DNA from: Gemmatimonas phototrophica
GTDB lineage: Bacteria; Latescibacterota; UBA2968; UBA8231
Assembly (NCBI GenBank): GCA_945861755.1
Contig: CAMAVQ010000009.1
Span: forward strand, 1-64,000
Reading direction: 5' to 3'
DNA: 64,000 bases
In this document: positions 27,492 to 63,928 of the stretch, one piece after another
Position numbering within the stretch: position 1 is the first letter of the stretch
Layout: each line of letters begins with the position of its first letter
The notes under the pieces: model-generated
What the model was told of the DNA's origin: nothing
Databases searched by the model: none
What the model saw: the letters and a program-made list of their open reading frames with translations, nothing else
Position numbers and translations under genes: made by a program

Positions 27492-29966
27492 ATGAGGTTC
27501 GGGATCCGCTGCATGGTCGCATTGGCGCTGGTGGTCCTGACTCAGGGCCCGGTGAGCGCCGAACTCTCCACTTTCTCGCTGCCCGGTCAGAGTCTCACCT
27601 GGCGCGATGCCGAGGAAGGCTCCCTGTCGGTCTCCCGCTATCTAGAACCCATAGATGTCGAGCGCTTCAGCGACGGGATTCTGCCCATCTACCCGGTCCG
27701 CATGGTGTCGGTGCCGATTCTCGCCCTTCAGGGTACCGACTCTACCCTCAGCACAGCGGGCGATTCGGTCCTCTTTGCTTTTTCCCGCCATCTGGCCCAG
27801 CAGGAGGTGGTAGCCCTAGAGCAGGTGGTGCTGGAGGATGGCACCATCGTCCCGCCTGGGCAGGTGCTCATCCCCAGGTGGGGCAATTTCCCCCGCCAGT
27901 TGAGCCAGGTACAGCTGCTGCGCCAGGCCGGCATCACGGAGATTCCGGCCATGATCAACGTGGCCGAAGCCTACCCATTCCCCCCGGTGGCAGACAAGTA
28001 CAACAAGGGGCTCACGATCACTTGGCAGACCATCTGGGAACGGGCGATGACCTATGACCGGGCCCAGGGGTTCATGCAGACCATCTTCGACAACGACCCC
28101 AGCACCCACTTTGAGCGCATCGACAAGGTGGGCCAGGACGTGCAGCAGACCTGGACCTTGTACATTGATCTGGGCCGCTATTTTCCGGTGCGCCTGGTGC
28201 GTTTTTATCCCACCTCCGGACTGCCCAAGGTCTCCTCCTACACCTTGCTCTCGGGTGCGGTGGGCACCGAGAAGCATATTGCCGGCCTCAATATCGACGA
28301 CCCGACGGTGGGCCAGATCGGCTTTCCCCGTTTTGAAAACATGTCCCGGATCCTGCCCACCTTTGTGGTCGATAGGAGCGAGCCGATCAACCTGGACGAC
28401 ACGGTGTCGGTGCTCTTCGATCCGTCCAAGAAGGTGCGCTTCTCCCGCCTCGACTTCAGAACCTCGCTGGATTATGATCTGGCCGAGGTCGAGTTCTTCG
28501 GGGATGGTTTCCTGCCCGAAGCCTCCTACGTGACCAAACCCCTGTCCCTACCTTCGGCCACTCTAGGCCGCATCTTCTGGGACGAGGAAAAGTTGGGGAA
28601 CCCGGCCAAGTCGCGCGCCATCGTGCGCATGCAAACCGGGGTGAATCAGGAACCCCAAGTGATGTTCCGGCTCAACGATTTCGGGGTGCCGGTGGAGTGG
28701 AAGGAGGGGGTGGTCAAGGTGCTCGACCGTCGGCCTGGGTCCCAGACCTTGGGCCAGTCCGTCGACCTGAACGATCCGAACTTCAACCTGGTGGTGCGCG
28801 AGATCTTCAGCGACCTCTCCGATGCCGAGCGCGCGGCGGCGCGTCTCACCCGCGTCGAGTATCAGGCCCTGCCCGGCAACAAGCGTTCCACCGTCGAACC
28901 CGATCTGGTGTTCTGGAGCGGCGCCCAGCCAGTGGAGAACGGCGGGTTCATCAAGGCTCCGGGCGGGCGGCCTTACTTCCAGATCCAGGTCGAGTTCAGC
29001 AGCGACGACCCCGAATCGGCCACGGCCATCCGCAACCTGCGTTTCGAATACTCCGCCCCCCAGACCATCAGCCAGATCTACGGCGAGATTGCCCCGGCCA
29101 CCAACGTGAGAGCCGGCCAGGACACCACCTTCGTGCTGGCGCTCAAGGCGTTGCTTGAGCAAGACAACAAGGGCTTCAACCGGCTTCAGGTCTTCACCCC
29201 CACCCGGATTGAGCGGATCGAATCCGTGCAGGTCGACCAAGGCGGTGGAGTACTTCAAGCGTTGGTGCAGAGCCAGGGTTCTCCCCAGGAGGGTCAGTTT
29301 CAGCAGCTGTACACCGACGACGAGCAGTTTGTCCTGGCCTTTCCCAAGTTGGGCCCGGACCTGGGCGGCAGCACCCGCGAGGTGTTGCTCAAAGTGCGCT
29401 TCAAGGCCCGGGTGATCGATTTTCGCACCAATTTCAAGGCCAATGCCCTGCTCGACTCCCTGAGCACCGGGCGCCGGGTCTTCAACACCAATGGCATCGT
29501 CGCCTTGGCCGACGTCGGCACCGATACCCTGGCCCTGTTCCTGCCCCAGGGTCTCGAAGCCCGGGACGTGGTGAACTTTCTCCAGACGGACCAACTCGAA
29601 GACAGCAATAGCCTGGCAGTGACCGCCGACCTCTCGTCCCAGAGCAAGGAACTGGTGACCAAGCTCAAAATGGCCCCCAACCCCTTTACCCCCAACGGCG
29701 ACCTGGTGAACGACCAGTTGCAGATTTCCTTCGATGTGCAGCGCCTGACTGCGGCCCGGCCGATCAAGGTCGAAATCTTTGATTTGAGTGGTCAGCGGGT
29801 GCGGAGCATCGAGCAGGAAGCTGTTTCGGGGGGGTATACCCAGAACTGGGATGGTCGCGATGGCAAAGGTAATCTGGTGGCTCCAGGGTTGTACCTGGTG
29901 CGGGTTGGGGTCGATGCCGACGCCGCCAACTCGGCCCAGGTGCGGCTGGTTTCCGTGGCGTATTGA
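27492..29966 (+). CDS. Secreted discoidin-like protein with FTPNGDG/FlgD-like C-terminal domain
   Basis: 824 residues with a signal peptide (MRFGIRCMVALALVVLTQGPVSA). A discoidin (F5/8C)-like segment around residues 190-245 has FDNDPSTHFE and LYIDLGRYFPVRLVRFYP. A sheet region follows (AIVRMQTGVNQEPQVMFR), then a motif common to the group (YQALPGNKR), and FRTNFKANALL before the C-terminal module from about residue 730: NPFTPNGDLVND, VEIFDLSGQRVRSIE, NWDGRDGKGNLVAPGLYLVR, final VSVAY. The third motif residue is GDL instead of the usual GDG. GGGGAG seven bases before ATG sets the start. Likely exported to the surface; binding partner unknown. Confidence 0.75.
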   Translation: MRFGIRCMVALALVVLTQGPVSAELSTFSLPGQSLTWRDAEEGSLSVSRYLEPIDVERFSDGILPIYPVRMVSVPILALQGTDSTLSTAGDSVLFAFSRHLAQQEVVALEQVVLEDGTIVPPGQVLIPRWGNFPRQLSQVQLLRQAGITEIPAMINVAEAYPFPPVADKYNKGLTITWQTIWERAMTYDRAQGFMQTIFDNDPSTHFERIDKVGQDVQQTWTLYIDLGRYFPVRLVRFYPTSGLPKVSSYTLLSGAVGTEKHIAGLNIDDPTVGQIGFPRFENMSRILPTFVVDRSEPINLDDTVSVLFDPSKKVRFSRLDFRTSLDYDLAEVEFFGDGFLPEASYVTKPLSLPSATLGRIFWDEEKLGNPAKSRAIVRMQTGVNQEPQVMFRLNDFGVPVEWKEGVVKVLDRRPGSQTLGQSVDLNDPNFNLVVREIFSDLSDAERAAARLTRVEYQALPGNKRSTVEPDLVFWSGAQPVENGGFIKAPGGRPYFQIQVEFSSDDPESATAIRNLRFEYSAPQTISQIYGEIAPATNVRAGQDTTFVLALKALLEQDNKGFNRLQVFTPTRIERIESVQVDQGGGVLQALVQSQGSPQEGQFQQLYTDDEQFVLAFPKLGPDLGGSTREVLLKVRFKARVIDFRTNFKANALLDSLSTGRRVFNTNGIVALADVGTDTLALFLPQGLEARDVVNFLQTDQLEDSNSLAVTADLSSQSKELVTKLKMAPNPFTPNGDLVNDQLQISFDVQRLTAARPIKVEIFDLSGQRVRSIEQEAVSGGYTQNWDGRDGKGNLVAPGLYLVRVGVDADAANSAQVRLVSVAY

Positions 29967-30013
29967 GGAAAAGCGGCAGGCAGTATCTGCCAGCAAAGGA
30001 GCACGGGTTAGCG

Positions 30014-33000
30014 ATGAAAAAGATATTAGCGGGACTCCTGATTAGCCTCGCCGTCGCCGGGGTAGGCGGGGCCCAGACTCCGCCCACGGCCTACCGTATC
30101 CTCGGTAACTCGATCCGGGTTGACCGCGCTTCTCTTTGGCAGAACTGGGAATCCCAGAACGACCGAGTCACCAGTCTGTACCGCCCGCTTTCTGGTGTGG
30201 ACGTCATCAAGGTGAGCGAAGAGGGGGTGCAACCCACCTTCTTCCGGCGCAAGATCAATGCCGCCTTGGAGGCAGATAAGTTCACCTATCCTGATGTGGT
30301 CCGCGCCGCGGGTGCTCTGGTCAATGGGGGAGCTGTTGGTCTCTCTAATACCGCAGAGGCCCACTTGGTCATCGACGACGACCTGAGCACCTACTGGGAA
30401 CCGGCGACCCCTGCCAGCTATGAGGCCCGGTTGCGCGACCCCAAGGATTTTTCCATCGACAACCTGCGCAATTGGGAACTGACGGTGGACCTGGGCCGGC
30501 TGGTCTACGCCGACAGCATCACCGTGATCTTCCCCTCCGGGCGCAACTCTGAGACCTTCCTGGGCCAGCCGGGCAAGGCCTTTGTCCTGTGGGCCTCCAT
30601 GGGCGAGCGCTTCCCCTTCCCCTTGGGCACCAATCTCAAGTTTACCCCGATCGGCCAGGCTACAACCCCGGACGAGGCGGCCGGCAAACTCGCCAGCCCT
30701 CAGCAGGGGAATACCGGCGCCTCCCAGATCCAGGTGGAAGCGGGCAAAGGCGTGCTGGTGCCCATGCCCGGCACCGACGGAAAGTACCTGCAGTCCACCT
30801 TCCACCTCACGCCCCTCGATCGCGCCGATTTCGATTTGGACGGCATCCCCGATATCTCCGGTTCGCCGGTCCAGTACGTCAAACTGACCTTCACCGACAG
30901 CGGTCTGTGGCGCAAGACCTTCATCGGTGCCGGGGATTCGGCCCGGGCGGTGTACGAGGCCCTGCCTCCCGAGCAGCGAGGTGCCCTCTTGTACCAGCGG
31001 CAGACCGCCGGCGGCTTCCTGGTGGAGATCGAGGACGATCCCCAAGGTCTGACTGCCCGGGAGCGCTATCTCTCCCTGCCCCCGGAAAAGCAGGGATCCC
31101 TGCTCTATTACTCCCGCGAGGTGCCCAGGGTAGCCGAGATCCAGGTCTGGGCCAAAGGCGACAACTACGCCCTGCGGCCCGAGCAGCGGGCCGGGGCCTC
31201 CTTTGAGCACGGCGGCCTGGGCGCTCCCGAAAAAGCCACGGACGGGCTATACGACACGGAGTGGCAGGCCAATACCTGGTCGCCTATCTACACCAAGGGC
31301 ACGGCCTGGTGGGATCTGGGCGCGGTCTTCTGGGTGGACAACCTTTTCCTCATCGACAAGCGCATCAACCAGAGCCACTCCGGCGCGTTCACAGGCCACT
31401 TCATCCTGGTATCAGACGGCACCCTGCTCAAGCCCATCACCATGGAGAGCCGCGAGGACTTCCCGCAACTTGAGAACGGCCTCGACTGGGACAACGTGGT
31501 CAGCGAGAATCAGCTCGACAACCATCTCCCGGTGGTGCGCATCGTCAACGAGCATTTCCCTTTGCGCCAGATCCGCTACCTCATGTTGCGCGACATCGAC
31601 ATCACCGGCAGCAACTCCGGCCAGTACGGCGCGTTGGCCACCCTGGGTGAACTGCAGCTCTACGGCGAAGGATACCCGGTGAGTGTGTGGACCTATTCGC
31701 CGCCCATCAAATTGACCGACAGCAAGGGCAACTTCATCCGCAAGACCCTGCCGCGCATCTCCTGGGAAGGGGAGGCCATTGTGCGCCAGACCGACCCGCT
31801 CACCGGCCGCAGCGTGGAGGTGGCTGAAGCGCTGGAGAGCCATCCCGAGGTGCGCCTGCAAATCCAGACCCGCACCAGCGATCAGACCGACTCCACCTTC
31901 AAGTACTACGAAGTAGTGAGCATCGAGGGCAGCGAAGAGCGGAGCGAGATCACCAAGGAACTCTACGACGACCTGGTCTTCCGCTGGAATGTGTGGAACA
32001 CTTGGACCGGATTGAAGACGCCCCACGCCAGCAGTGCCGACGACGACAAGGACGGATCGATAGACGAGGACGAGATCGACTTTGTCGACAACGACGGAGA
32101 CGGCAAGATTGACGAGGACGGCAAGAAGCTGGGCAATGGCCGGAAGCCCAAATCCGATCCGGCCAAGGACGGGGTCCTGGCTTTTGTGGGCTGGAGCAAC
32201 TGGAGCGAGAGTTACCTACCCACCAATGGCCGCAACGAGGCGCTGATCACCTCCCCCAATCCGCGCAAATTCCTGCAAATCAGGATCAATATGTTTTCCG
32301 AAGACCCTTTCAAGACGGCGCGCATCCGCTCGCTGCGGGTGGACCTGGCCCCGCCCCTCTCCCTCGAGCTGGCCGGGGAAGTGGCCCGCCTGAATACTGG
32401 CGGTACCGACCGGTTGCTCAGTGATCTGCCCGGGGTGGTTCAGGCCGACTACGCTCAGCCTATCGATGTCGATCCGCTGCAGCCCCAGCTCTTCTCGTAT
32501 TTCATCCGCGCTGCCGGCCCCGACCCAGCGGACAGCGAAGTGCGCCAGGGCTTCGACGAATTACTCATCACCACCCCCAGGGCTGCAACCCTGCGCGGGG
32601 TGCGTTTGGGCCAGGTGAAGGTGGTGACCACTACTTCGACGCTCGACCCCACAGCCGTCCTGACCGGGGCGGTGACCACCACCTTCTCCGGTTATTTTCA
32701 GCGCGATCCAGCGGACGGCACCTTCAAGGATGCTGCCGGCCAGGTCCTGCAGGTGCTGCCGGCGGGCACCGATTCCCTGTACCTCCGCCTGCCTGCCTCG
32801 CTCAACGCCGGTCTCTCAGGCAATACCCAGGCCCTGGCCGAAATCCAGTTTGAGACCCAGACCCTCAAGGAGGGCGAGGAGTTTGGCAGCTACATCCGCT
32901 CTTCGAGCAGTGCCGACGTAGTTTTCCAGCGGGTGAACACCGACCAGCAGGACGCCACCGAGCTGGTGGCCAGCAGCACCGCCCGGATCAGCCTGGTGCC

Positions 33001-33349
33001 CCTGGCCGACCAGCTGGTCCACAACGTGACCCTCGACCGGGTGTTCACCCCTAATGGAGACGGGATCAACGACCAGGCCAGGGTGAGTTTTACCCTGCTC
33101 AAGGTGTTGGCCGAGCGGCCGGTGGCGGTAAGTTTTTACGATCTGCAGGGCCGGCTGGCCGGCAGCGCCCGGGCGACCAGCGGCGCTAATGCAGCCGGTG
33201 AAGGCAAGGTGGGAACGCTGGAATTCGCCTGGGATGGGCGCGATGCCAAGGGGCAATTAGTGCCTCCGGGGATCTATCTGTGCCGGATCAGCGTGGATGC
33301 GGACCAGGGGAAGAGTGAGCAGGTGCACTTGGTCCATGTGGTTTATTGA
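30014..33349 (+). CDS. Large secreted discoidin-like protein with FTPNGDG C-terminal domain
   Basis: 1111 residues from the ATG at 30014 (AAAGGAG upstream, spacing 12). Signal peptide (MKKILAGLLISLAVAGVGGA). Discoidin-like segment near 110-165 (DDDLSTYWEP, WELTVDLGRLVYADSITVIF) and a second near 415-470 (TDGLYDTEWQ, WWDLGAVFWVDNLFLI). Two copies of LPPExxGxLLY lie near 318-366, an EF-hand/TSP3-like calcium stretch near 675-702 (DDDKDGSIDEDE, VDNDGDGKIDEDG), and WSNWSESY follows. The terminal module begins at about 1010 (VFTPNGDGIND, FYDLQGRLAG, WDGRDAKGQLVPPGIYLCRI) and ends VHVVY. Same architecture as the 830-residue protein at 54238. Confidence 0.75.
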   Translation: MKKILAGLLISLAVAGVGGAQTPPTAYRILGNSIRVDRASLWQNWESQNDRVTSLYRPLSGVDVIKVSEEGVQPTFFRRKINAALEADKFTYPDVVRAAGALVNGGAVGLSNTAEAHLVIDDDLSTYWEPATPASYEARLRDPKDFSIDNLRNWELTVDLGRLVYADSITVIFPSGRNSETFLGQPGKAFVLWASMGERFPFPLGTNLKFTPIGQATTPDEAAGKLASPQQGNTGASQIQVEAGKGVLVPMPGTDGKYLQSTFHLTPLDRADFDLDGIPDISGSPVQYVKLTFTDSGLWRKTFIGAGDSARAVYEALPPEQRGALLYQRQTAGGFLVEIEDDPQGLTARERYLSLPPEKQGSLLYYSREVPRVAEIQVWAKGDNYALRPEQRAGASFEHGGLGAPEKATDGLYDTEWQANTWSPIYTKGTAWWDLGAVFWVDNLFLIDKRINQSHSGAFTGHFILVSDGTLLKPITMESREDFPQLENGLDWDNVVSENQLDNHLPVVRIVNEHFPLRQIRYLMLRDIDITGSNSGQYGALATLGELQLYGEGYPVSVWTYSPPIKLTDSKGNFIRKTLPRISWEGEAIVRQTDPLTGRSVEVAEALESHPEVRLQIQTRTSDQTDSTFKYYEVVSIEGSEERSEITKELYDDLVFRWNVWNTWTGLKTPHASSADDDKDGSIDEDEIDFVDNDGDGKIDEDGKKLGNGRKPKSDPAKDGVLAFVGWSNWSESYLPTNGRNEALITSPNPRKFLQIRINMFSEDPFKTARIRSLRVDLAPPLSLELAGEVARLNTGGTDRLLSDLPGVVQADYAQPIDVDPLQPQLFSYFIRAAGPDPADSEVRQGFDELLITTPRAATLRGVRLGQVKVVTTTSTLDPTAVLTGAVTTTFSGYFQRDPADGTFKDAAGQVLQVLPAGTDSLYLRLPASLNAGLSGNTQALAEIQFETQTLKEGEEFGSYIRSSSSADVVFQRVNTDQQDATELVASSTARISLVPLADQLVHNVTLDRVFTPNGDGINDQARVSFTLLKVLAERPVAVSFYDLQGRLAGSARATSGANAAGEGKVGTLEFAWDGRDAKGQLVPPGIYLCRISVDADQGKSEQVHLVHVVY

Positions 33350-33414
33350 AAGCTGTCCCGCTCTTCGCCAGCAGGCGCGGGGCGAGTCTAAATAGCGATT
33401 CAAGGGAGGGAGTT

Positions 33415-36153
33415 GTGAACAAGGCCTACAGGATCTTTGCGTGTGTTATCCTGCTCGCAGGATGGCTACCGGCCCATGCTCAGGAAGACTTCGGCACGCG
33501 GCTGGGTATCCAGCGGGGCGGGGCGGTCTCCTACCAGCCTCTAGGTCCGGGCGTACTCTTTGATGCCCTGGACCCGGCGGTTAAGAAGTGGTACATCCCC
33601 CAGGAGTTGTTCAACGAGTACCAGTGGCAGCAGCAGGACTACACCAACTACGCCCGCCGCCATTTTCAGCGCTACGTGAACACCTACCAGGAAGGCGACT
33701 ACTTCTACGATCTGTACGGGAATTTTCTCACCCGTGGCCAGTTGATCTACGACTGGAGCGTGGCCGCGCCCCAGACCGCGGGCAGCAACCTCTATAAAGA
33801 CCCCAGATTTGCCAGCTGGTTCCAGAGCGTGACCATTGCCTCCGACGCCAAGGGCCAGTACGCCTATGCGCTGACCATCGGCGATAATATCCGCACCACC
33901 CTGACGCCGATGACCTTTTCCAGGCCCCGCTTCACCGGGGTCCAGTTCGACCTGGCCGCCGACAAGTACGAAGCCACCATCATCGCCTCCCGCCCCAGCG
34001 CTCCCGGTGCCATCGCCACCGCCAGCGGCACCTCGGGTACCGGCCGCTTCCGTTCCAACGACACCAACCTCCTGGGCGGGCACGGCACGGTGCAGTTGGG
34101 CGACTTTGTCAAGCTGGGGGCTACCTATGTGAGCGCTTTCAACGCCCAGACCAAGGGCCAGGCCTTCCAGGGCAATCCCTTCAAGGGTACCCTGACCGAG
34201 GGGCAGAACAACAACGACGCCAGTCGCATCGAAGTCCACCTCAGCGACGACTCCCCCGAGGATGGCAAGGCCGGCGCGGCCTACTTCCAGGAAGAGATGA
34301 TTATCACCACCGTCGACGGCAAGCGGCAGAGCAACCGCCGCATCCTCGACGACAACATCCTCGACTTCCATCCCTCGGTGCAGGGCGGTTTCCGCCAGGA
34401 AGGTTATATCTCGGCCGACGGCAACGAGGTGATCGTGCTGGTCTACGATTTGGAAGGGCCTCAGTATCGCAACGCCTTCGGCCCTACCCCTGAGCGCATC
34501 AAGAGCATTGAGTTCGTGATGCTGCTGGCCAACGACTACCGTATCGACCTGACCTCCAACCGCCAGCTCAATACCAACGGCCAGCCGGTGCTGCTCTCGG
34601 AGGGCATTCCCGAGCGCACGCTGCGCGCCAGCGGCAATGTGCAGGACGGCTCCAACCAGCGTTTTGTGAAGCTCGCCTATGGGTTGCCGGTGGCCAACGA
34701 GATCTACGGGGTCACCCTAGACGTTACCAATGTGGGCGGCTTCTACCTGGCTGGCGAGTTCGATCGCAACCGCCAGCATTTCCGCTATCCGAGTCGCTCC
34801 GAGAACGACGTGACCAGCCACCATGCCAGCAGCAAGAGCGCCGACGCCTGGTTCCTCAACGGCTACAAGCGGGCCCAGCCCTTCTTCGCCTTTGGCGAGG
34901 TCTACCAGGTGGAGCCGGACTACAGCACCAGCACCTTCCTGGCCGGCGTCCAGAACGACGCTGCCGACATCTTTTACGACAACGCCAACCAGTACGTGTA
35001 CGAGTTTGTCGACGACAACGACGATCAGGACCGCTCCCCGGACTGGTTGCGGGCCAACGGCGCCCAAGACATCAAGGTTTTCCCGGGTTTCGACGAGAAC
35101 AACGATTTCGTCAACGACTTCAACCAGAACGACACCCAGTTTCGCGAAAACGCTTCTCCCGACTACGAGGAACCTTTCCTGCGTTATAGTTCCGACCGCC
35201 CGGAATTTCTCTTTGGCGTCGATATGAACAACAACGGCATTGTCGACCGCTTCGAAAACGACAACCTGCCGGATTACCTGTACAAGCGCGATCGCAAGGG
35301 CTACAACACCTATCTGGGTTCCCAGCTCGGGCCCGAGGCCCGGCTGACGGTGGGCCGCCTGGACGAAAGGCAGCTGGCCGACAAACGCTCCAATACCAGC
35401 AACTATTTGCTGCTGACCTACGACAAGGACTTCCCGCGCCTGGGCCGGGTGCAGGTGTACGAGAACTGGCGGCGGGTGCAGGACGATATCCGCGATGATG
35501 TAATTGAGTGGATCGTGCGCGAGGGGTCGCGCGGTTCCTTTGTGCCCTACGAAGATCCCCTGCCCATGCGCGATGCCTGGGCCAACACCGCGTACCTGGG
35601 GTACAGCTACCAGAACGACAAGGTGCAATTCAAGAACCGCATCAAACACGATATCATCCGCCAAGTCGATTATGACCAGCGGCCCACCGATCAGCAGGAG
35701 ATCCGCGAGACCTCCACCTTCTTCGGCATGATCAACAAAATCGATTACACCCAGGCCCTGGGCCGCATCAAGCTGGAGCCCCGCTGGAAGAGCGAGTACG
35801 AGCGCTACCGTCCGGCGCGCAAGCGCGAGGACCCGGTGCGGGTTGCCACCACCGAGCTGCGCGAGTTGCTGGGGCTGGTGGTGCGGGTGCCCATCCTCAA
35901 CCACACCGAACTGGAGACGGGGCTGGAGTACCTTTTTGTCAACCAGTTCCGCAAACAGCTCGAGGACGATCAGCTCCGCTCGGACCGCAACGAACTGGTC
36001 TACGCCCTGCAGTTCACCAACAACGTGGACTACCTGGGGTACAATCTGTGGACCCAGACCGGCTTCCGGATCTCGCGCATCGACCAGAAGTCGGCGGTGA
36101 AGGTGCGTACCGAGACGGCGATGTTCATCACCGTGTACGCCGGCCTCGAATAA
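33415..36153 (+). CDS. Putative outer-membrane protein of the DMNxNGxxDRFEND family, paralogue 1
   Basis: 912 residues from GTG 33415, preceded by GGGAGGG; the frame is open upstream to 33346 but without a ribosome site. Signal peptide ends AHA-QEDFG. Early conserved block KKWYIPQELFNEYQW and the aromatic YFYDLYGNFLTRGQLIYDW. An acidic, calcium-site-like region spans residues about 528-635: VDDNDDQDRSPDW, FPGFDENNDF, PDYEEPFLRY, DMNNNGIVDRFENDN and RKGYNTYLG. The C-terminal third alternates strands and ends FITVYAGLE. Two paralogues at 56730 and 61289 share every block. No established family was recognised; a barrel is inferred from length, strand pattern and neighbours. Confidence 0.68.
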   Translation: MNKAYRIFACVILLAGWLPAHAQEDFGTRLGIQRGGAVSYQPLGPGVLFDALDPAVKKWYIPQELFNEYQWQQQDYTNYARRHFQRYVNTYQEGDYFYDLYGNFLTRGQLIYDWSVAAPQTAGSNLYKDPRFASWFQSVTIASDAKGQYAYALTIGDNIRTTLTPMTFSRPRFTGVQFDLAADKYEATIIASRPSAPGAIATASGTSGTGRFRSNDTNLLGGHGTVQLGDFVKLGATYVSAFNAQTKGQAFQGNPFKGTLTEGQNNNDASRIEVHLSDDSPEDGKAGAAYFQEEMIITTVDGKRQSNRRILDDNILDFHPSVQGGFRQEGYISADGNEVIVLVYDLEGPQYRNAFGPTPERIKSIEFVMLLANDYRIDLTSNRQLNTNGQPVLLSEGIPERTLRASGNVQDGSNQRFVKLAYGLPVANEIYGVTLDVTNVGGFYLAGEFDRNRQHFRYPSRSENDVTSHHASSKSADAWFLNGYKRAQPFFAFGEVYQVEPDYSTSTFLAGVQNDAADIFYDNANQYVYEFVDDNDDQDRSPDWLRANGAQDIKVFPGFDENNDFVNDFNQNDTQFRENASPDYEEPFLRYSSDRPEFLFGVDMNNNGIVDRFENDNLPDYLYKRDRKGYNTYLGSQLGPEARLTVGRLDERQLADKRSNTSNYLLLTYDKDFPRLGRVQVYENWRRVQDDIRDDVIEWIVREGSRGSFVPYEDPLPMRDAWANTAYLGYSYQNDKVQFKNRIKHDIIRQVDYDQRPTDQQEIRETSTFFGMINKIDYTQALGRIKLEPRWKSEYERYRPARKREDPVRVATTELRELLGLVVRVPILNHTELETGLEYLFVNQFRKQLEDDQLRSDRNELVYALQFTNNVDYLGYNLWTQTGFRISRIDQKSAVKVRTETAMFITVYAGLE

Positions 36154-36170
36154 TCAGGAGAGTACAGACC

Positions 36171-36944: not shown

Positions 36945-36969
36945 CCAGGCCTGAAGAATACACCGACCG

Positions 36970-37006: not shown

Positions 37007-37036
37007 TCGTATGTACACCGAGAAAAGAGGAAAAAG

Positions 37037-41038: not shown

Positions 41039-41049
41039 GCGATCTCTCG

Positions 41050-45607: not shown

Positions 45608-45610
45608 CGT

Positions 45611-47284: not shown

Positions 47285-47322
47285 GCTAAGAATATAACCA
47301 AACTGCGGGAGGAGAGGAGCGC

Positions 47323-52328: not shown

Positions 52329-52336
52329 GTGCGCCC

Positions 52337-52382: not shown

Positions 52383-52384
52383 CT

Positions 52385-54238: not shown

Positions 54239-56730
54239 TGCGTCTCGCTGCCCTGCTGGTGCTGCTGCTGTCCGGCCTGCTCTGGGCCCAGGACAGCACC
54301 GGATACCGCCTGCTCTCGGATCGGGTAGTGATTTCCACCCCCGAGCAGTGGCAGGTCTGGGAATCCACCCCCGGGGTGCGGGTGATCGAGCCAGACGGGA
54401 CCGTGAGGCCGCGACTGATCCGCGCCAGCAACAACGCGGTGGCCGACGCTGGTTTCTTCCGCCGCATCGAGGTCGGGGAGGATACGGTCTTCGGCGGCAT
54501 CTGGGCGGCCGGTTCCAACGCAGAGAGCGCGGGCAAGATCATCGACGGAGATCCCGCCACCTATTGGGAGCCGGGCCGTGATGATCCGGTGGAGGACTGG
54601 TTCGTGGAGGTGGACCTGGGCCGGGCGGTGCTCGCCCGCCGGCTGGTGGTGCGTTTTGCCCAGGGCGGGGATCCTTTTTTGAAATTCCGCCTGATGATCT
54701 CCGATGGGCGCCAGGCTTTTGGGCAGGAGCACCAGCGGCAGTTCTTCCGCGTCGCCCAGGTGAACCGGCGCAACAAGGATCAGCGCGAATTTGAGTTCGA
54801 TATCGAACCCCTGCGGCCCCTGCCCCCGGGCGTGGAGGGCGAGGTGGTGCAGTTCGTGCGCATCGACGCCCTGGAGAGCGACGGGCCGCGCGGGGGCGAG
54901 GTCAATCCCGAGGAGTACGGGCATCTGGATTCGCTGGACCGCGGCGCTATCGATTATTTTCGCCGCACCGCCGCCGACCGCCAGATCCCGGTTTCGCCGG
55001 AGACCTACCAACTGCTGCCGGCGGCCGAGCGCGGCCCGGTGCGCCACTACCGGTACGAACGGCCCCGCCTGGCTGAGATCGAGGTCCACGGCCTGGGCGA
55101 CAACGTGGTGGCCCTCACCCAGAGCGAGTTGCTGGAGGCCCAGGATTTCTTCGCCAATATCCAGCGCCGGCTGCTCACCGACGGCCTGTACAGCTCCTCC
55201 TTTGAGCTGCGCCCCTACGATCCCTTGCGGGACCGCAATCAGCTGGATATCGACCTGGGGGGCAAGTACTGGCTGGATCGCATTCGGCTGCTCAGTTCCT
55301 TCGACCCACCGGTGGCCTATCAGGTGCGCCTCTCGGACGGCAGCCTGGACCCCGAAGGCCGGCGGGTGTGGCAGAATTTCGACGAGCGGGTCAATGCCAG
55401 CGGCTTGCTGCAAATGGAGGAGCGTTTCCCGCTGCAGGAGGTCCGTTTCCTCCAAGTACGCCGGCTGGTGCTGGTCGACGAAAGCGCCGAACACGGCAAT
55501 CTCAGCGAGGTGCAGGCCTACGGGGAGGGCTACGTCTCCGAGGTGATCCTGGTCTCGCCGCTGATCCGGCTGGGGCGGCCGCGGATCTTTTCTACGCTGA
55601 CCTGGGAGGGGGAATCCCTGCCCGGCACCCGCATCGAGGTGCGCACCCGAAGCGGCGACGACCTGCTGCGCACCGCCCACTATTTCGACAAGTTCGGGCG
55701 CGAGATCACCCAGGCCCGCTGGGAAAACATCGTCGATCCGGTGAACCGCGGCCCGCTGGTGGTGGACGAACAACCAGGCCCGCGCTGGAGCAACTGGAGC
55801 GAGAGTTATCCAGGGTCTGGCAGTGTTTTTCGTTCCCCCAACCCTCGGCAGATGGTGCAGGTGCAGGTCACCCTGCGCAGTAACGAGCCTTTGCGAGCCG
55901 CGCAGTTGCGCCGGCTTCAGCTCCACTTCACGGCCCCGCTGGTCGACCAGGTGCAGGCCGAGATCTGGCCAGTGCGGGACGTGGATCCGGGGGCAGCCCA
56001 GGAATTCACCCTGTACCTGCGCCCTCAGTTTGCCGCCGGGGACCCTGGTTTTGAGCGCCTGCGCCTGCGCACCTCCTCCTCGGCGCCCCTGGAGCTGGTG
56101 GCCCTCGACGCCGGCAGCGACGCGCAGCTGCGCCAGGACAGTGCCACCCGGCTGTGGCCCGGCCCGGTACAGGTAGAGCGAGACTCCACCGGTGCTCTGG
56201 ACCTGATCTTTCCCCAGGTCCAGCGCCAGGGCAGCCAGGTCTATGCCCTCCGCTTCCGCACCAGGCTCTTCCTCAACAGCACCACCTTCAGCGCCGAACT
56301 GCGCAATAGCCAGCGACCGGGCGTGGTCCAGGTGGCCAGCGAGGGCGACGCCAGCCAGCTGGCCGGCGCCCAGAGTCTGGTGGTGGTCGCCGACCTGAGC
56401 GGCTCGCCCTTGGTGGGCGGGCTGGCGCTGGTGCCCCCGGTCTTCACCCCCAATGGCGACGGGATCAACGATCAGGCCGGGATCGAGTTCTCCGTCTTTC
56501 ATCTCGAAGGGAGCGAGCTGCTGCGGGTGGAGGTGTTCACCCTGGCCGGGGCGCGGGTGCGAGACCTGTCACAAGTGCGCCAGGCCCCCAGCGGCCAGTA
56601 CCACTTTGAGTGGGATGGCCGCGACGCGGCTGGGCGGCTGGCGTCTCCGGGGATCTACCTGGTGCGCCTGCAGGTGGAGGGTCAGGCCGAGAGCCGGACC
56701 CTGGTGCGTTCGGTACGGGTGGTGTACTGA
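54238..56730 (+). CDS. Secreted discoidin-like FTPNGDG-domain protein
   Basis: 830 residues with signal peptide (MRLAALLVLLLSGLLWA). It is the counterpart of the 1111-residue protein at 30014: similar N terminus (STGYRLLSDRVV against TAYRILGNSI), discoidin-like DGDPATYWEPG and FVEVDLGRAVLARRLVVRF, the group motif TYQLLPAAERGPVRHY, a second discoidin-like segment (LDIDLGGKYWLDRIRLLSSF), and WSNWSESYPG. The terminal module from about 734 has PVFTPNGDGINDQ, VEVFTLAGARVRDL and WDGRDAAGRLASPGIYLVRL, ending VRVVY. It overlaps both neighbours by one base (TGATG), so expression is tightly coupled to the outer-membrane protein that follows. Confidence 0.77.
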   Translation: MRLAALLVLLLSGLLWAQDSTGYRLLSDRVVISTPEQWQVWESTPGVRVIEPDGTVRPRLIRASNNAVADAGFFRRIEVGEDTVFGGIWAAGSNAESAGKIIDGDPATYWEPGRDDPVEDWFVEVDLGRAVLARRLVVRFAQGGDPFLKFRLMISDGRQAFGQEHQRQFFRVAQVNRRNKDQREFEFDIEPLRPLPPGVEGEVVQFVRIDALESDGPRGGEVNPEEYGHLDSLDRGAIDYFRRTAADRQIPVSPETYQLLPAAERGPVRHYRYERPRLAEIEVHGLGDNVVALTQSELLEAQDFFANIQRRLLTDGLYSSSFELRPYDPLRDRNQLDIDLGGKYWLDRIRLLSSFDPPVAYQVRLSDGSLDPEGRRVWQNFDERVNASGLLQMEERFPLQEVRFLQVRRLVLVDESAEHGNLSEVQAYGEGYVSEVILVSPLIRLGRPRIFSTLTWEGESLPGTRIEVRTRSGDDLLRTAHYFDKFGREITQARWENIVDPVNRGPLVVDEQPGPRWSNWSESYPGSGSVFRSPNPRQMVQVQVTLRSNEPLRAAQLRRLQLHFTAPLVDQVQAEIWPVRDVDPGAAQEFTLYLRPQFAAGDPGFERLRLRTSSSAPLELVALDAGSDAQLRQDSATRLWPGPVQVERDSTGALDLIFPQVQRQGSQVYALRFRTRLFLNSTTFSAELRNSQRPGVVQVASEGDASQLAGAQSLVVVADLSGSPLVGGLALVPPVFTPNGDGINDQAGIEFSVFHLEGSELLRVEVFTLAGARVRDLSQVRQAPSGQYHFEWDGRDAAGRLASPGIYLVRLQVEGQAESRTLVRSVRVVY

Positions 56731-59378
56731 TGAGAGCCCGGCTAGTCCTGCTCCTGCTCTTATTGGCGGTCCAGCCCCTGCGCGCCCAGTACCTGGGCCG
56801 GCCCCTGGGGGTGTTGGGCCAGGGAGGGCAGAGCGAAGTGGCACCCAGATTCGGGATGGAACTGGAGGAACCGGTGATACACCGCTACTACGCGCCGCGC
56901 CAGCTGGTCGACAGCTATGTGCAGCCCTGGTATGTGGGCGAGGGTGGATACGCGCGCAACCTCTATCGGCGCTATGTCGATTTGTCCCTGGAGGGTGAGC
57001 AGTGGTACGACTCCTTTGGCACCCCCCTGGGCCGGGGCTGGCTGGTCTACAGTTGGACCCAGCAGCAGCAGGCGCCCCTGGGCAGCGAGATCGTCAAAGG
57101 GCCCTCCGATCCGACCCGGGTGCGGGCGTACGACCGCTTCTTCAACCGGCTGGTGATCGCCTCCGACGGCAGGGGCCAGAGCAGTATGCGGCTGATGGTG
57201 GGCGACGAGATCTACACCAGTTTCACGCCGCTCACGTTTTATAAGCCGCGTTTCAACGGCATGCGTATGGACTACGCCACCGATCTGTGCCGGGCCAGTC
57301 TCATCATGTCGCGGCCCAGCGAGCCGAACCGCGGCGAGTTCACCGACGCTACCCATTTGATGGGCGGCCACGCCGAGTTCCAACTCGGTCCCCTGATGAA
57401 GATGGGCCTCACCTACGTCAACGCCCACAACGCCCAGACCAAGGCCGACTTCACGGCCGGCAACCCGCTGCGCGGCACCCTCACCACCCAGCAGAACCAG
57501 GTCCCCAAAACTATCTATATACAGGTGCGGGACGACTCGCCGGCCGACGGGCAATCCGGGGCTGCCCTCTTCTCCTACGACATCGTGCTGGAGGATACCA
57601 GTGGGCAGCAGGTGCGCGGCAGTCAGCTGGGGTTCCTGCCCCTGGTCGAGGGGGGGCGTTCCCAGGGCAGCACGCTGGTGGCCGAGGGGGGCGACGCCAT
57701 CCTGCTGCGCTACGATCTGGATCGGTTGGAGGGCTTGAAGGCCTCCCAGCTGCGGCGGGCTATCGTCGAGCTGTCGCTGGCCGATGACTACCGGGTGGAG
57801 ATGGCTTCAAATCTGCAGACCGATGGCCAGGACCGTCCGCCCTCCCCGGTCTTCCTGCCCTTCCGCCGCGCCGCCGGCAACGTACACGACCGCAGCAACG
57901 GGACGGTGCTGCGGCTCGACTACGTCCTGCCCACGGCGGAGGAATTGGTCGGGGTCAACTGGGATCTGACCGAATGGGGCGGCCTGTCGCTACAGGGCGA
58001 ACTGGCGCTCAGCCGGCGCTACGGCCAGTATCCCAGCCCTGATATCCCCGATCCGTACCAGACGGTATCCCAGGCCAGCGCCGCCTATGCCCTGGCCGCG
58101 TACCGCCGTCTGCCCTGGTCCTTGTTCACCGAACTCTTCTCCATCGACGACGGCTATTCGACCAACTACTGGCTGACCCAGGGCAACGGCCAGATCAAGT
58201 ACCGAGACCTGGTGCCCCAGCTCTACGAATTTGTCGAAGACGACGACGACCACAATGCCTTGCCCGACTGGGAGCGGCCCTTCCAAGGCTGGAGCCCGGT
58301 GGTCTGGCCTGGGTACGACGAGAACGTCGATTTTCGCCACGACAACAACGAGAACAACAACCTCATCCCCGACTACGAGGAACCCTTCCTGCGCTTCCGC
58401 GCCGATCGGCCCGAGTTCCTCTTTGGGCTCGACATGAACCACAACGGCACCATCGACCGCTTCGAGAACGACGAGGCCCCCGACTACCCTTACCGGCGCG
58501 ACCAGCGGGGCTACAATACCTATCTGCAGGTGCAGGCAGGGCCCGACATGAAGTGGAGCGTTGGCCACCAGCGCGCCCGCCTGCTCTCGGGAGCGGGCCA
58601 CAGCCGCGCCTACTACCTGCTGGCGAGCTGGATCCGGTTGCTGGGACAGGGTGGGCGGCTGCGTTGCTTCGCCCACGGGGCCCTGGTGCGCGACGACATC
58701 GCCGACGACCTGGTCGAGTGGGTGCAAACCCGCGGCAGTCTGGGGCGGATGCGGGCCCTGCCCGACCTCTTGCCCCAGCGCGACGCCTGGACCCACACCC
58801 TCTACGCCGACCTGGAACACCGGCTGGGGCAAGGGGTGCGTCTGATGCACCGGGTCAAATGGGAGTTGCTCTACCAGCGCGATCCGATTGCCCGGGTGCA
58901 GGCCCGCGAGGGGCGCAAGGAGGCCGGATTTCTGGGCCTGATCGACAAGGCCGAATGGGGCATTCCCATCGGTATGGGGGTGCTGGAGCCGCGCTGGAAG
59001 AGCGAATTCCGCCGGGTAAGGCCCTATGGCAGCCGTCTGCTGGCCTTCACCGAGTTGGAGGAGACCGGCTCCCTGCTGTGGACCCAGCCGCTGCTGGCCG
59101 AGCGGGTGGGGATCAACTATTTCCCCGGGTACGGGCGCCAGATGTTCAACACCACGCTGGAAACCGGGTTGGAGTTCGGTTGGCGCTGGGCCCTGGCCGG
59201 GGCCGGGGCGTCGGACAGCCGCAACTGGAGCGCGGTGATCCAGCTCAGCGACCGGGTGGCGTATCAGGGCTATAATCTGATCGCCCGGGCCGGGCTGCGC
59301 ATGGGGGAAGAACGCGTTCAGGGCCAGCGGACCCAGCACACCAGCCTGTTCCTCGTGAGCATCAACGCGGGGTTGTGA
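56730..59378 (+). CDS. Putative outer-membrane protein of the DMNxNGxxDRFEND family, paralogue 2
   Basis: 882 residues with signal peptide (MRARLVLLLLLLAVQPLRA). It shares with paralogues at 33415 and 61289 the N-terminal RYYAPRQLVDSYVQPWYV and WYDSFGTPLGRGWLVYSW, MRMDYATDLCRASLIMSRPS, the AHNAQTKADF strand, RDDSPADGQSGAALF, and the acidic region from about 503: VEDDDDHNALPDW, WPGYDENVDF, IPDYEEPFLRFRADRPEFLF, DMNHNGTIDRFENDE, YPYRRDQRGYNTYL. Ends TSLFLVSINAGL. A barrel pore or adhesin partner is inferred. Both ends overlap neighbouring genes by one base. Confidence 0.68.
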   Translation: MRARLVLLLLLLAVQPLRAQYLGRPLGVLGQGGQSEVAPRFGMELEEPVIHRYYAPRQLVDSYVQPWYVGEGGYARNLYRRYVDLSLEGEQWYDSFGTPLGRGWLVYSWTQQQQAPLGSEIVKGPSDPTRVRAYDRFFNRLVIASDGRGQSSMRLMVGDEIYTSFTPLTFYKPRFNGMRMDYATDLCRASLIMSRPSEPNRGEFTDATHLMGGHAEFQLGPLMKMGLTYVNAHNAQTKADFTAGNPLRGTLTTQQNQVPKTIYIQVRDDSPADGQSGAALFSYDIVLEDTSGQQVRGSQLGFLPLVEGGRSQGSTLVAEGGDAILLRYDLDRLEGLKASQLRRAIVELSLADDYRVEMASNLQTDGQDRPPSPVFLPFRRAAGNVHDRSNGTVLRLDYVLPTAEELVGVNWDLTEWGGLSLQGELALSRRYGQYPSPDIPDPYQTVSQASAAYALAAYRRLPWSLFTELFSIDDGYSTNYWLTQGNGQIKYRDLVPQLYEFVEDDDDHNALPDWERPFQGWSPVVWPGYDENVDFRHDNNENNNLIPDYEEPFLRFRADRPEFLFGLDMNHNGTIDRFENDEAPDYPYRRDQRGYNTYLQVQAGPDMKWSVGHQRARLLSGAGHSRAYYLLASWIRLLGQGGRLRCFAHGALVRDDIADDLVEWVQTRGSLGRMRALPDLLPQRDAWTHTLYADLEHRLGQGVRLMHRVKWELLYQRDPIARVQAREGRKEAGFLGLIDKAEWGIPIGMGVLEPRWKSEFRRVRPYGSRLLAFTELEETGSLLWTQPLLAERVGINYFPGYGRQMFNTTLETGLEFGWRWALAGAGASDSRNWSAVIQLSDRVAYQGYNLIARAGLRMGEERVQGQRTQHTSLFLVSINAGL

Positions 59379-61276
59379 TGAAGACCTGCTGGATCATTGC
59401 TGCCGCATTGTGGTGGGCCACCGGGACCGGGGCCCAGCTGCGCACCTTTGTCCTGGGGCAGGGTGGCCATCCCTGGGCGCAGGGCGGGGGCGGTACCGAT
59501 CCCGAACTGCTGGTGAAGGGCGGGAAGGTGGATACCACCAACACCCCGGACGAGGCCATCGACTTTGTCCACCGGGCAGGCTGGATTAGTCCCCTGCGCT
59601 TCGACGAGGACCAGAACATCGCCGGCCGGGTGTTGGTGGGGTCGGGGAGCATCACCTCGCCCAATTCCCTGCTGGAATCCCGCGCGGTGTTGAACAAACA
59701 GTTAGAGGGCACGGTGAATGGCGATCACCGGGTGGCCTTTGAACGAAAACCCACCCCGTTCAACCCCGAGGCCAACGCCCGGGGCATCCTGGTCATCCTC
59801 GATTTTGGCGGCACAGTTGGCATCCACCGGGTGCGCTTCTATCCGCGCAACACCGTGGTGCCCGATCTGAACGTGCCCTTCCAGGACGACTTCCTGCGCG
59901 GCTATGAGCTGTTGATCAACGAACGGCTCACCAACACCGCCCAGAACGCCCCAGATCTTTTGATCGCCCGCGACACGGAGAACGACCATCCGGTGGTCGA
60001 TCTGGAGCTGGCGCCCCAGTTCGTGCGGCTGATCAAGTTGCGCTCCCTGGCCGAAACCCCCTTTGAGCTGGATGAAGTCGAGGTCTACGGCACCGGCTAC
60101 CTGGGTAAGGCTAGCTACCTCTCCGACCTGATCGACCTGGGAGACCGGGCCACGGTGGGGCCGGTGCGCTGGCGGGAGGAGGCGGTGGGCGAACCGGCCC
60201 GCTCCCAGATGGGGGTGCGGGTGCGCACCGGCAACGACGACACCCCCATCGTCTACCGGCGGCAGGGCGTGGGCGAAACCGGGGAGTCCTTTGTCATTGA
60301 ACTGCCCGGGAGCGATTACTACCAGTTGGAACGGGCGGCGCGCGCCCCCCTGATCGAGGACGCCCAGAACTGGAGCCCCTGGAAGACGGCCCAGAACGAG
60401 GCCCTGGTGACTGCGCCCGGACCGCGGCGTTTCATCCAGTTCAGCCTCGATTTTGCCGGGAGCCTGTTCGATACCCGCCAGGCGGGGCAGCTGCAGTTCG
60501 ACTATTTGCAACCACCCATCGCCGACACCCTGCGGGCCGAGGTCTTCCCGCGCCTGGCCCGCGCCGAGGAGCCCGCTACTTTCCGCTACGCGGTCCGGCT
60601 CAGGACCGCCGGCCCGGTGCGCGGCTTCGACCGGCTAGAGGTGGACACCAACGTCCCGGTGACCGCGGTGCGCCAGCTGCGTATCCAGGGCCGGCCGGTG
60701 GATTTCATCGCCGACCTCGACCATCCCGATTTTCTCCGCCTAGACTTCCCGTTGGTGCAGGAGGACGGGGCAGTGCTAGAATTCACCTTCGATCTGCCCA
60801 TCTTCCGCTTCGGCACCACCTTCTCCGGGCGGGCCTACCACCACAGTTTCCCCACCGTGCCCCAGCGCCTTGAGTCCGGCGAGGCAGTGGATTTTGGGCC
60901 GGGCGACGTGGCAGAGCTGTCCGGGTTGTCGGTGGCCATTCCCGAGTCACAGGTGGGCAAGCTGGTGGGCGAGATCGCCTTGAGCAGCCGGATGCTCACC
61001 CCCAATGGCGACGGGGTCAATGACGCGGTGACCATGAACTTCAACCTGCTGCAGCTGACCCAGCCCACGCTGGTGGCCTGGGAGATCTACGACCTGTCCG
61101 GCCGGCGGGTGCACACGGTCTTCGCCGAGGAGCGGCGTATAGGACCGGCCACCTACCAGTGGGATGGTCGGGCGGCGGGTGGCCTGCTGCCGCCGGGCAA
61201 CTATCTCTGGGTGCTGCGGGTGGAGGCGGATGCCTTCGAGGAAAGACACACCGGGGTCGTCGCCCTGGCGTATTGA
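59378..61276 (+). CDS. Secreted FTPNGDG-domain protein
   Basis: 632 residues from the ATG overlapping the previous stop (TGATG); a GTG three bases earlier is possible. Signal peptide (MKTCWIIAAALWWATGTGA). Discoidin-like block near 145-165 (ILVILDFGGTVGIHRVRFYP), DEVEVYGTGYLGKASYLSDL, VRVRTGNDDTPIVYR, the group motif YYQLERAARAPL with NWSPWKTA, and FDYLQPPIADTLRAEVFPRL. The terminal module from about 538 has MLTPNGDGVND (leucine for phenylalanine), WEIYDLSGRRVHTV and WDGRAAGGLLPPGNYLWVL, ending VALAY. Thirteen bases separate it from the third barrel-type gene. Confidence 0.76.
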   Translation: MKTCWIIAAALWWATGTGAQLRTFVLGQGGHPWAQGGGGTDPELLVKGGKVDTTNTPDEAIDFVHRAGWISPLRFDEDQNIAGRVLVGSGSITSPNSLLESRAVLNKQLEGTVNGDHRVAFERKPTPFNPEANARGILVILDFGGTVGIHRVRFYPRNTVVPDLNVPFQDDFLRGYELLINERLTNTAQNAPDLLIARDTENDHPVVDLELAPQFVRLIKLRSLAETPFELDEVEVYGTGYLGKASYLSDLIDLGDRATVGPVRWREEAVGEPARSQMGVRVRTGNDDTPIVYRRQGVGETGESFVIELPGSDYYQLERAARAPLIEDAQNWSPWKTAQNEALVTAPGPRRFIQFSLDFAGSLFDTRQAGQLQFDYLQPPIADTLRAEVFPRLARAEEPATFRYAVRLRTAGPVRGFDRLEVDTNVPVTAVRQLRIQGRPVDFIADLDHPDFLRLDFPLVQEDGAVLEFTFDLPIFRFGTTFSGRAYHHSFPTVPQRLESGEAVDFGPGDVAELSGLSVAIPESQVGKLVGEIALSSRMLTPNGDGVNDAVTMNFNLLQLTQPTLVAWEIYDLSGRRVHTVFAEERRIGPATYQWDGRAAGGLLPPGNYLWVLRVEADAFEERHTGVVALAY

Positions 61277-61288
61277 GATGAGGATGGT

Positions 61289-63928
61289 ATGTTGAATATT
61301 TGGCGTAGGGGCGTATCGCGATGCGCCCCTATGGTGGTGCTGGCGGTAATATTATCCGCCTCCCTTCTGCACGCCCAGGACTACGGGGCGCGCCTGGGGC
61401 AAGTCAAAAGGGGCGGGCGGCTCAGCTTCGAGCCCACCGGTCCGGGGGTGCTGATGGACGCCCTCGACCCGGTGGTGCGCAAGTGGTATGTGCCCCAGGA
61501 ACTCTACAGCGAGTACCGCTGGAAGCAGCAGGAGTACAACAACTACGCCCGCACCCTGTACCAGCGCTATGTCAACACCGCCCTAGAAGGGGAGTATTTC
61601 TACGACATCTACGGCAACTACCTGATGCGCGGCTGGTTGATCTACGATTGGCGCCAGGAAAATCCCCAGCCCTTCGGCAGCGCGGTAGAGAAGTCGGGCC
61701 GCTTTAGTTCCTGGTTTTCGAATCTGGTCATTGCCTCGGATCACAAAGGCCAATACCACTACGCCATCACGGTGAGCAATCAGCTGCGCACCACCCTGAC
61801 ACCCATGACCTTCTCCAAGCCCCTCTTCGACGGGCTCCAGTGGGATTTCGCCTCCGACAAGTACACCGCCACCTTGCTGCTGTCGCGCATCAGCGACGCC
61901 GGGGTCTCTGGTGCCAATCCCCAGCAGCGCACCGACAACACCAACCTGATCGGCGGCCGGCTGGTGGCCCAGGTGGGCGATTTTGTGCGGGTGGGCACCA
62001 CCTTTGTCAGCGCCCATCAGGCGCACACCCAGGTCGAGGCTTTCAGCGGCGACATGTTCAAGGGCAACCTGACCGCCCAGCAGAACGCCGAGGGCATGGC
62101 CCGCCTGCAGATCGCCATCCGCGACGATTCTCCCGAGGACACCGCCGGCGGCGGGGCTCTTTTCGCCAGCGACCTGGTGCTCTACGACCTGACCGGACAA
62201 CAATTCCGGGCCAGCGAGCTGGGGTTTCGTCCGTTGGTCGAGGGCGGTTTCGAGCGCCAGGGCTTTCTGGCCGCTGACGGCAACGAGCGTATCGTGGTGA
62301 CCTACGATTTTGGCGACCGCAGCTACACCGGTCCCGATCTGAGCGAGTTGGAGCGGGTGGAGGTCGAGTTGGTGGTGGCAGATGACTACCGCATCGAAGT
62401 CGCCTCCGACCTCCAGCCCGTGTACCAGGTAGTGGCGCGGGCCCCTGGCAACGTGCAGGACAACTCGAACCAACAGGTGCTTCGTTTCGACTACGGCCTG
62501 CGCACGGCTGACCAGATCACCGGTTTCACCTTGGAGTTGGACGACCTGGCCGGCTTCAAGGGCTATATGGAGATCGACATCAACCACCAATTCCGCCAGT
62601 ATCCCAATCCCAACCTCGACCAGCACCATGTGGCCTCCACCCGGGCCAATGCTTGGTTGCTCAACCTGTCCCAGACCCATTATCCCTATTTCGCCTTCGG
62701 CGAGGGCTTTGATATCAGCCCAGACTACAGTACCTCGATGACGGTGGTCGACAGCGACGGTGAACTCGACGAGAGCAACGATTTTCAGCGTTTCGAGATG
62801 GTCGACGACAACGACGACCAGGACCGTCGCCCCGACTGGCGGCGCAAGGGCTGGGAGGCCGGCGACCAAGAGGTCTTTCCCGGTTGGGACGAGAACAACG
62901 ACTTTATCTCCGACTTCAACCAGAACGACAACATCGACAGTCCCAACCTGATCCCCGACTACGAGGAGCCCTTCCTGCGTTTCCAGGTGGACCGGCCAGA
63001 TTTTCTCTACGGGGTGGATATGAACCACAACGGCTGGGTGGATCGTTTCGAGAACGATGAGGAGCCCGACTACCCTTACCGACGCAACCAGCGGGGGTAC
63101 AACATCTACGGCGGGGCTTTTCTCGGCCAGGAGGTCCGCTTTGCGGTGGGGCAGCAGCGCCTGCGCCAGATCTCCACCGGTCGGCGCAACCTGGCCACCT
63201 ACTTGCTCTTCACCGCCGACCAACGCCGCTCCTGGGGGCGCCTGCAACTTTTCCAGGATCTGCGCAAGGTGCACGACACCATCCAGGACGACCTGCTGCA
63301 GTGGGTGCAGCCTGCCAATACCCGGGGGGGCTTGCGCCTGGTGACCGACCCCATGCCGGCGCCCCACACCTGGGTCAACACCACCTGGCTGGGCGGGGAG
63401 TACACCAGGATCCCGGGACTGAGCTTGAGCACCAAGTTCAAGTGGCAGATTTACCACCAGTTAGGCGATGGGCTGGCCCTCGAACTGGCTGGCAGACGCC
63501 GGGATGCGGTTTTTCTGGGGCTGATCGACAAGGTGGAATACCGCTTCAACCTGGGCCAGTTGACGCTAGTGCCCCGCTGGAAGAGCGAATTGCTCCACCA
63601 GAGCCAGGTCAGCCGTACTGAGCCCCACAAGCGGCAGTGGGATCAATTATATGTGATAATGGCGCGTTTTCCGGTGTTCCGCAGCAGTTTTATTGAGGGC
63701 GGGGTGGAATACGAGTCTTTCGCCCAGTTGCGCACCCCTCCCCCGCCGGGGGCCGAAGCCAGCTTCAAGGGCTTGGTGGGCACCTGGCAGCTGACCAATT
63801 TGTCCGAATATCAGGGATACCGCCTGACCACCACCATCGGTTTCGAACTGGCCCGCCGGCATTTCGAGTTCCACCAGGTGCAGACCCGGACCCGGGGTTT
63901 TGTCACTGTTTATGCAGGGGTGCAATAA
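61289..63928 (+). CDS. Putative outer-membrane protein of the DMNxNGxxDRFEND family, paralogue 3
   Basis: 879 residues. GAGGATGG precedes the ATG; the signal ends LLHA-QDYG. It is closest to the 33415 protein (GPGVLMDALDPVVRKWYVPQ; YFYDIYGNYLMRGWLIYDW; TLTPMTFSKPLFDGLQWDFA; RDDSPEDTAGGGALF). The acidic region starts near residue 505: VDDNDDQDRRPDW, FPGWDENNDFISDFNQND, IPDYEEPFLRFQVDRPDFLY, DMNHNGWVDRFENDE, YPYRRNQRGYNIY. The last strand FVTVYAGVQ matches FITVYAGLE of paralogue 1. Last gene of the 52.4-63.9 kb operon; no terminator visible in the 72 bases left. Confidence 0.68.
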   Translation: MLNIWRRGVSRCAPMVVLAVILSASLLHAQDYGARLGQVKRGGRLSFEPTGPGVLMDALDPVVRKWYVPQELYSEYRWKQQEYNNYARTLYQRYVNTALEGEYFYDIYGNYLMRGWLIYDWRQENPQPFGSAVEKSGRFSSWFSNLVIASDHKGQYHYAITVSNQLRTTLTPMTFSKPLFDGLQWDFASDKYTATLLLSRISDAGVSGANPQQRTDNTNLIGGRLVAQVGDFVRVGTTFVSAHQAHTQVEAFSGDMFKGNLTAQQNAEGMARLQIAIRDDSPEDTAGGGALFASDLVLYDLTGQQFRASELGFRPLVEGGFERQGFLAADGNERIVVTYDFGDRSYTGPDLSELERVEVELVVADDYRIEVASDLQPVYQVVARAPGNVQDNSNQQVLRFDYGLRTADQITGFTLELDDLAGFKGYMEIDINHQFRQYPNPNLDQHHVASTRANAWLLNLSQTHYPYFAFGEGFDISPDYSTSMTVVDSDGELDESNDFQRFEMVDDNDDQDRRPDWRRKGWEAGDQEVFPGWDENNDFISDFNQNDNIDSPNLIPDYEEPFLRFQVDRPDFLYGVDMNHNGWVDRFENDEEPDYPYRRNQRGYNIYGGAFLGQEVRFAVGQQRLRQISTGRRNLATYLLFTADQRRSWGRLQLFQDLRKVHDTIQDDLLQWVQPANTRGGLRLVTDPMPAPHTWVNTTWLGGEYTRIPGLSLSTKFKWQIYHQLGDGLALELAGRRRDAVFLGLIDKVEYRFNLGQLTLVPRWKSELLHQSQVSRTEPHKRQWDQLYVIMARFPVFRSSFIEGGVEYESFAQLRTPPPPGAEASFKGLVGTWQLTNLSEYQGYRLTTTIGFELARRHFEFHQVQTRTRGFVTVYAGVQ

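Follow-up and report, generated by a model that had tools for sequence, protein, structure and literature searches.

To our knowledge, nearly all work on the partners of the T9SS concerns Bacteroidota, in which cargo passes, by way of its tail, to PorV or PorP/SprF barrels. Type B cargo depends on PorP/SprF carriers encoded directly downstream of it (PMC12618676, PMC9143113). In F. johnsoniae, each carrier is, for the most part, specific to the CTD of its own partner. Latescibacteria are members of the FCB superphylum (PMC4454575) and SprA has been described as FCB-specific (PMC12611786), and a T9SS is therefore expected in the organism analysed here. In this other phylum of the same superphylum, we found that a much larger and unnamed barrel family occupies the PorP/SprF gene position.

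Gene layout of the window

The window, the whole 64,000-nucleotide stretch of DNA analysed, comes from a Latescibacterota MAG. Near-identical loci carry the MAG labels Candidatus Latescibacterota, Handelsmanbacteria or Gemmatimonadetes. In the genome collection, the named matches are labelled Latescibacterota, Gemmatimonadetes, Gemmatimonadaceae, Handelsmanbacteria and, for one MAG, Bryobacterales; several contigs with such labels match genomes placed in the same family as this one.

The first-pass annotation listed six secreted cargo genes that end in one tail module and three paralogues of ~900 residues, and all of them are open reading frames at the positions given here. On the forward strand, a small secreted protein of a recurrent family, referred to as C (26437–27330), is followed by a secreted cargo (27492–29966; C-terminal FTPNGDG/FlgD-Ig tail at ~29667–29963) and a second cargo (30014–33349; tail at ~33032–33346, 137.7 bits with the tail profile), the latter directly 5' of barrel-family paralogue 1 (33415–36153). 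Downstream of this barrel are a lipoprotein-like protein (36171–36944; DUF4352 below cut-off, lipobox SAGC by eye), which recurs in 11 of 80 related loci, and a parvulin-type (PPIC) lipoprotein (37037–38707; Rotamase domains, E ~1e-16). A further tailed cargo, on the reverse strand, has no adjoining barrel (49501–52170; CHU_C 39.7 bits, Asp-rich repeats near the N-terminus). The forward strand then carries a tailed cargo (52385–54238), a cargo directly 5' of barrel paralogue 2 (54238–56730), paralogue 2 itself (56730–59378; assigned by alignment and the family profile), a cargo directly 5' of paralogue 3 (59378–61276; tail at ~60980–61273, 140.5 bits) and paralogue 3 (61289–63928).

Each of the three paralogues thus lies directly 3' of a tail-bearing cargo gene, as had been claimed. 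Of the two one-base overlaps reported between cargo and paralogue, the one at 56730 holds; the overlap at 54238 joins cargo to cargo and that at 59378 joins barrel to cargo. The remaining two cargo-to-barrel gaps are 65 bp (30014 cargo to 33415 barrel) and 12 bp (59378 to 61289). The reverse strand of the window (41050–49500) also encodes a group of FG-GAP/UnbV_ASPIC and TPR proteins, of which one contains a PMT mannosyltransferase domain, and a related cluster of PMT/TPR proteins is found near barrel modules in 20 loci.

A T9SS in the genome and phylum

The MAG encodes a T9SS. The genome search proposed in the first-pass annotation recovered SprA, PorV and PorU, all over curated cut-offs. SprA is 2058 aa long (contig C14), and it was found in nearly every Latescibacterota genome tested. 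PorV is present in 26 of 26 genomes, with 11 PorV-family matches in this one, and PorU adjoins a PorV on contig C80. Among 20 genomes searched, none matched GldM (TIGR03517), and the control was equally silent. A search of 30 genomes for PorP/SprF (TIGR03519) returned nothing over cut-off. PorV-family matches number 13–31 in genomes of family f3, which is without the barrel family, and 7–15 in those of family f1. The arrangement had been suggested to be either a divergent T9SS branch or a separate system; the presence of SprA, PorV and PorU over curated cut-offs favours a T9SS and makes a separate secretion system unlikely.

The tail module and its cargo

The proposal that six secreted proteins share one C-terminal module was borne out, as the tails form one alignment of ~100 columns in which 20 positions are invariant. 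In Pfam, FlgD_ig exceeds its gathering score in four of the six tails and CHU_C ("Type IX secretion signal") in three; both match the 27492 cargo (36.3 and 31.4 bits). This cargo is also the only one to pass TIGR04183 (type A CTD; 23.8 bits, cut-off 23). Against TIGR04131 (type B CTD), the best tail genome-wide scored 33.8 bits with a curated cut-off of 35. Of the three kinds of model named for comparison in the first-pass annotation, FlgD_ig matched the majority over cut-off, TIGR04183 a single cargo and TIGR04131 none, and the module is formally outside type B. The tails also weakly match the C-terminal region of PorU. With a tail of a T9SS signal family in a genome that has SprA, PorV and PorU, the window cargo proteins are predicted T9SS substrates.

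Kinship among the window cargo genes runs along their whole length, beyond the tail. The AlphaFold model of the 52385 cargo (ma4dfa073e9d1, pLDDT 90.6) shows discoidin/CBM32-like and Ig-like domains, with Foldseek matches to galactose oxidase, a CBM32 module (TM 0.73 of target) and PorU, and the 54238 cargo passes the Pfam cut-off for F5_F8_type_C (29.4 bits, cut-off 28.2). The cargo models also resemble multi-domain adhesins and pilins. We infer from the CBM32/discoidin-like domain of these models that the cargo may capture glycans.

The tail profile, which was built from this window and may under-count divergent tails, finds ~44 full-length tails in this genome, and about two-thirds of them have no directly following barrel. 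Every genome in which full-length tails were seen also has the barrel family. In nine barrel-less genomes, all of which have SprA, the same window-built profile gave no match of at least 60 bits, and nearly full-length matches reached 47–49 bits.

A family of large predicted outer-membrane barrels

The ~900-residue proteins (~880–910 aa) have no match in Pfam (E 0.1) or NCBIfam, and sequence searches found neither barrel relatives in the PDB nor plasmid-borne relatives. Within the window, the 61289 protein shares 45% and 39% identity with the other two paralogues. A profile search of 64 Latescibacterota genomes found the family in 39, often in more than 15 copies, including all 25 genomes of the same family as this one and several other families; it is absent from families f2, f3, f4 and f10. 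This genome has ~26 members or fragments.

Whether these proteins are barrels at all had been named as a point on which the first-pass proposal could fail. The AlphaFold model of the 61289 protein (me9b0e915a91e; pLDDT 72, pTM 0.72) is barrel-like, of a large outer-membrane type with ~23 long strands, and in it residues 1–145 are poorly modelled and a β domain (~residues 272–401) is inserted after the sixth barrel strand. A loop between barrel strands, at ~480–600, is Asp/Asn-rich, nearly invariant and poorly modelled; its sequence DxNxNGxxDRFEND resembles calcium-binding repeats. Averaged over the family, hydrophobicity shows alternation along the barrel strands (p 0.0015) and none detectable in the insert; from the single sequence, the amphipathicity of the strands has a p of 0.07. 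The Foldseek matches listed for the model are outer-membrane barrels (SlpA, FimD, MtrB, SprA, TonB receptors), the best being the Deinococcus S-layer barrel SlpA/SDBC, all with TM-scores of ~0.2, which supports the barrel class and, because the scores are so low, no specific family. The ~900-residue proteins are thus predicted to be amphipathic outer-membrane β-barrels.

Three identities were considered and rejected: paralogy to SprA (hhalign probability 0.5%), a SusC/TonB-dependent receptor (no Pfam hit to plug or receptor domains at E 0.1) and PorP/SprF (no TIGR03519 homology, NCBIfam without match). Chaperone-usher pores carry their plug domain at the same strand order as the 61289 insert, a likeness without sequence support for a relationship.

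Tail genes precede barrels across related loci

In this genome, 15 of the 26 barrel members or fragments have a same-strand tail gene less than 500 bp upstream, and 0.0027 would be expected per member. Across 80 related loci, 121 barrel members have enough upstream sequence to be scored; 84 of these directly follow a tail gene (within 800 bp), compared with 7% at random positions, and the non-random placement anticipated from the window therefore extends to related genomes. The others comprise 33 tandem second copies that follow another barrel and four that follow neither (L105, L107, L109 and L116). A C-family gene precedes these four instead, which suggests, from gene order, that a C-family protein can replace cargo as the barrel partner.

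The recurring cluster runs from C through one to three tail genes and then one or two barrels to parvulin. The parvulin lipoprotein, which had been proposed as part of the arrangement, recurs in 34 of the 80 loci. The C family counts 53 homologues in 50 of the 80 loci and has no match in Pfam or NCBIfam; 49 of the 53 members end in the motif VESxTWGxxKxxF (also given as TAVExxTWGxIKxxF). A similar terminal motif is seen in a sulfatase-modifying-factor-like protein (L077:16664–17605) and at 21638–22120 of the window. We considered WGxxK as a general sorting signal and rejected it, as 453 kb of this genome yielded just two proteins with the strict motif, the C-family protein of the window and a similar-looking one near barrels on contig 8.

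The barrel diverges with the cargo body

Coupling was taken as the correlation of pairwise distances among paralogues of one genome, in 95-column windows of the cargo. Within genomes, the barrel follows the adjacent cargo body in every body window (rho 0.76–0.87), whereas the tail reaches 0.41 and its partial correlation with the barrel, given the body, is -0.12. After similar barrels are removed, the body retains 0.76, 0.71 and 0.52 and the tail 0.42, 0.35 and 0.22; the tail–barrel link is weak yet significant (0.22–0.42). A tail–barrel match as the main coupling, significant at first, was then explained by the cargo body. Tails of cargo genes that precede the same barrel resemble each other no more than other tails do (0.391 vs 0.395, p=0.90). 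Other neighbours show little within-genome coupling to the barrel (C 0.11, parvulin -0.09, second cargo -0.17 with n=11 pairs); in comparisons between genomes, rho rises to 0.34–0.36 for C and the second cargo.

Barrel and cargo body thus diverge together across dozens of paralogous pairs per genome, and the earlier idea of a porter paired with the tail was not supported, as stated, by these correlations. Physical linkage alone fails to explain the pattern because the tail-coding segment is nearer to the barrel gene than the body-coding segment is. From this co-divergence we infer that body and barrel may be in contact; co-divergence can also arise from long co-inheritance without contact.

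Discussion

We propose that the Latescibacterota T9SS builds two-part surface units, in which the cargo body is docked on the barrel encoded by the next gene, and we give this model an even chance of being correct. Sec would carry the cargo across the inner membrane and SprA across the outer one, with the generic FTPNGDG/FlgD-Ig tail as a shared export tag; this tail-directed step is suggested by the family to which the tails belong and by SprA, PorV and PorU being encoded in the genome. After export, the cargo body would dock on the large barrel of the next gene, which would hold it at the surface. The parvulin lipoprotein and the small secreted C protein, often of the same cluster, probably aid folding or ligand capture, and the discoidin/CBM32-like domain may allow the unit to function in attachment or uptake by binding glycans or other surface ligands. 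A more specific version, which we hold tentatively and consider somewhat doubtful, is that the undescribed barrel family forms SusC/D-like uptake or receptor pairs with body-matched specificity, dozens of diversified pairs per genome, their exposed half delivered by the T9SS rather than as a lipoprotein.

The barrels could instead be T9SS carriers which recognise the tail and draw the cargo from SprA in the manner of PorP/SprF, though unrelated to them in sequence. Such shuttles would account for a gene order like that of Bacteroidota type B cargo and porP/sprF (PMC12618676, PMC9143113), for the 0 of 30 genomes with PorP/SprF over cut-off and for the restriction of full-length tails to barrel-family genomes. 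However, carriers of F. johnsoniae are mostly CTD pair-specific, yet here coupling to the barrel is lowest in the tail, tails upstream of a common barrel show no added likeness, and we consider a carrier function unlikely. Less likely again is an S-layer-like role in which the barrels tether a structural coat or a layer of adhesins and are not part of a receptor or uptake unit: SlpA/SDBC leads the Foldseek matches of the barrel and the cargo models resemble adhesins and pilins as well as CBM32, but the barrel matches have TM-scores of ~0.2, and dozens of diversified pairs per genome differ from one dominant coat protein. That the ~900-residue barrels are themselves the translocation pores of a separate export system seems very improbable. 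The one-to-one gene pairing, the insert after six strands in chaperone-usher order and the ushers among the Foldseek matches would fit such pores, but the tails belong to T9SS signal families in a genome with SprA, PorV and PorU, about two-thirds of them lack an adjoining barrel, and the usher Pfam family is not among the matches.

If the two-part model is true, the export signal is separate from the docking signal, and the paralogues provide naturally varied cognate pairs with which to study the origin of specificity. The model would also be a first step towards a function for a large outer-membrane protein family of Latescibacterota that lacks annotation.

The proposal of cargo with an outer-membrane partner in a phylum other than Bacteroidota was supported, the partner being larger than PorP/SprF and unrelated to it. 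The closest described system is the type B CTD and PorP/SprF pairs of F. johnsoniae (PMC12618676, PMC9143113), which likewise have an FTPNGDG-type C-terminal module, a barrel gene directly 3', many paralogous pairs and an SprA-type T9SS. Their barrels are ~300-aa, 14-stranded and of FadL type, whereas those described here are ~880–910 aa with an inserted domain; TIGR03519 has no match over cut-off, the tails fall below the TIGR04131 cut-off, and the barrel is coupled in sequence to the cargo body rather than to the tail. The PorV carrier for type A CTD cargo is present and expanded here (11 matches), but the ~900-residue family has no PorV-model match in the NCBIfam scan and the tails are of the longer FTPNGDG kind. 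The SusC/SusD glycan-uptake pairs of Bacteroidota resemble the present pairs in their many paralogues and in combining a large outer-membrane barrel with an exposed binding protein; here the exposed partner carries a T9SS tail and is not a SusD-type lipoprotein, and the barrel is without a TonB plug or receptor Pfam match. Judging from these sequence comparisons, we read the logic of the unit as more like that of SusC/SusD than that of a PorP/SprF shuttle which reads the tail, and we file the arrangement as a variant of the T9SS cargo–partner theme, neither a member of the PorP/SprF family nor a new secretion system.
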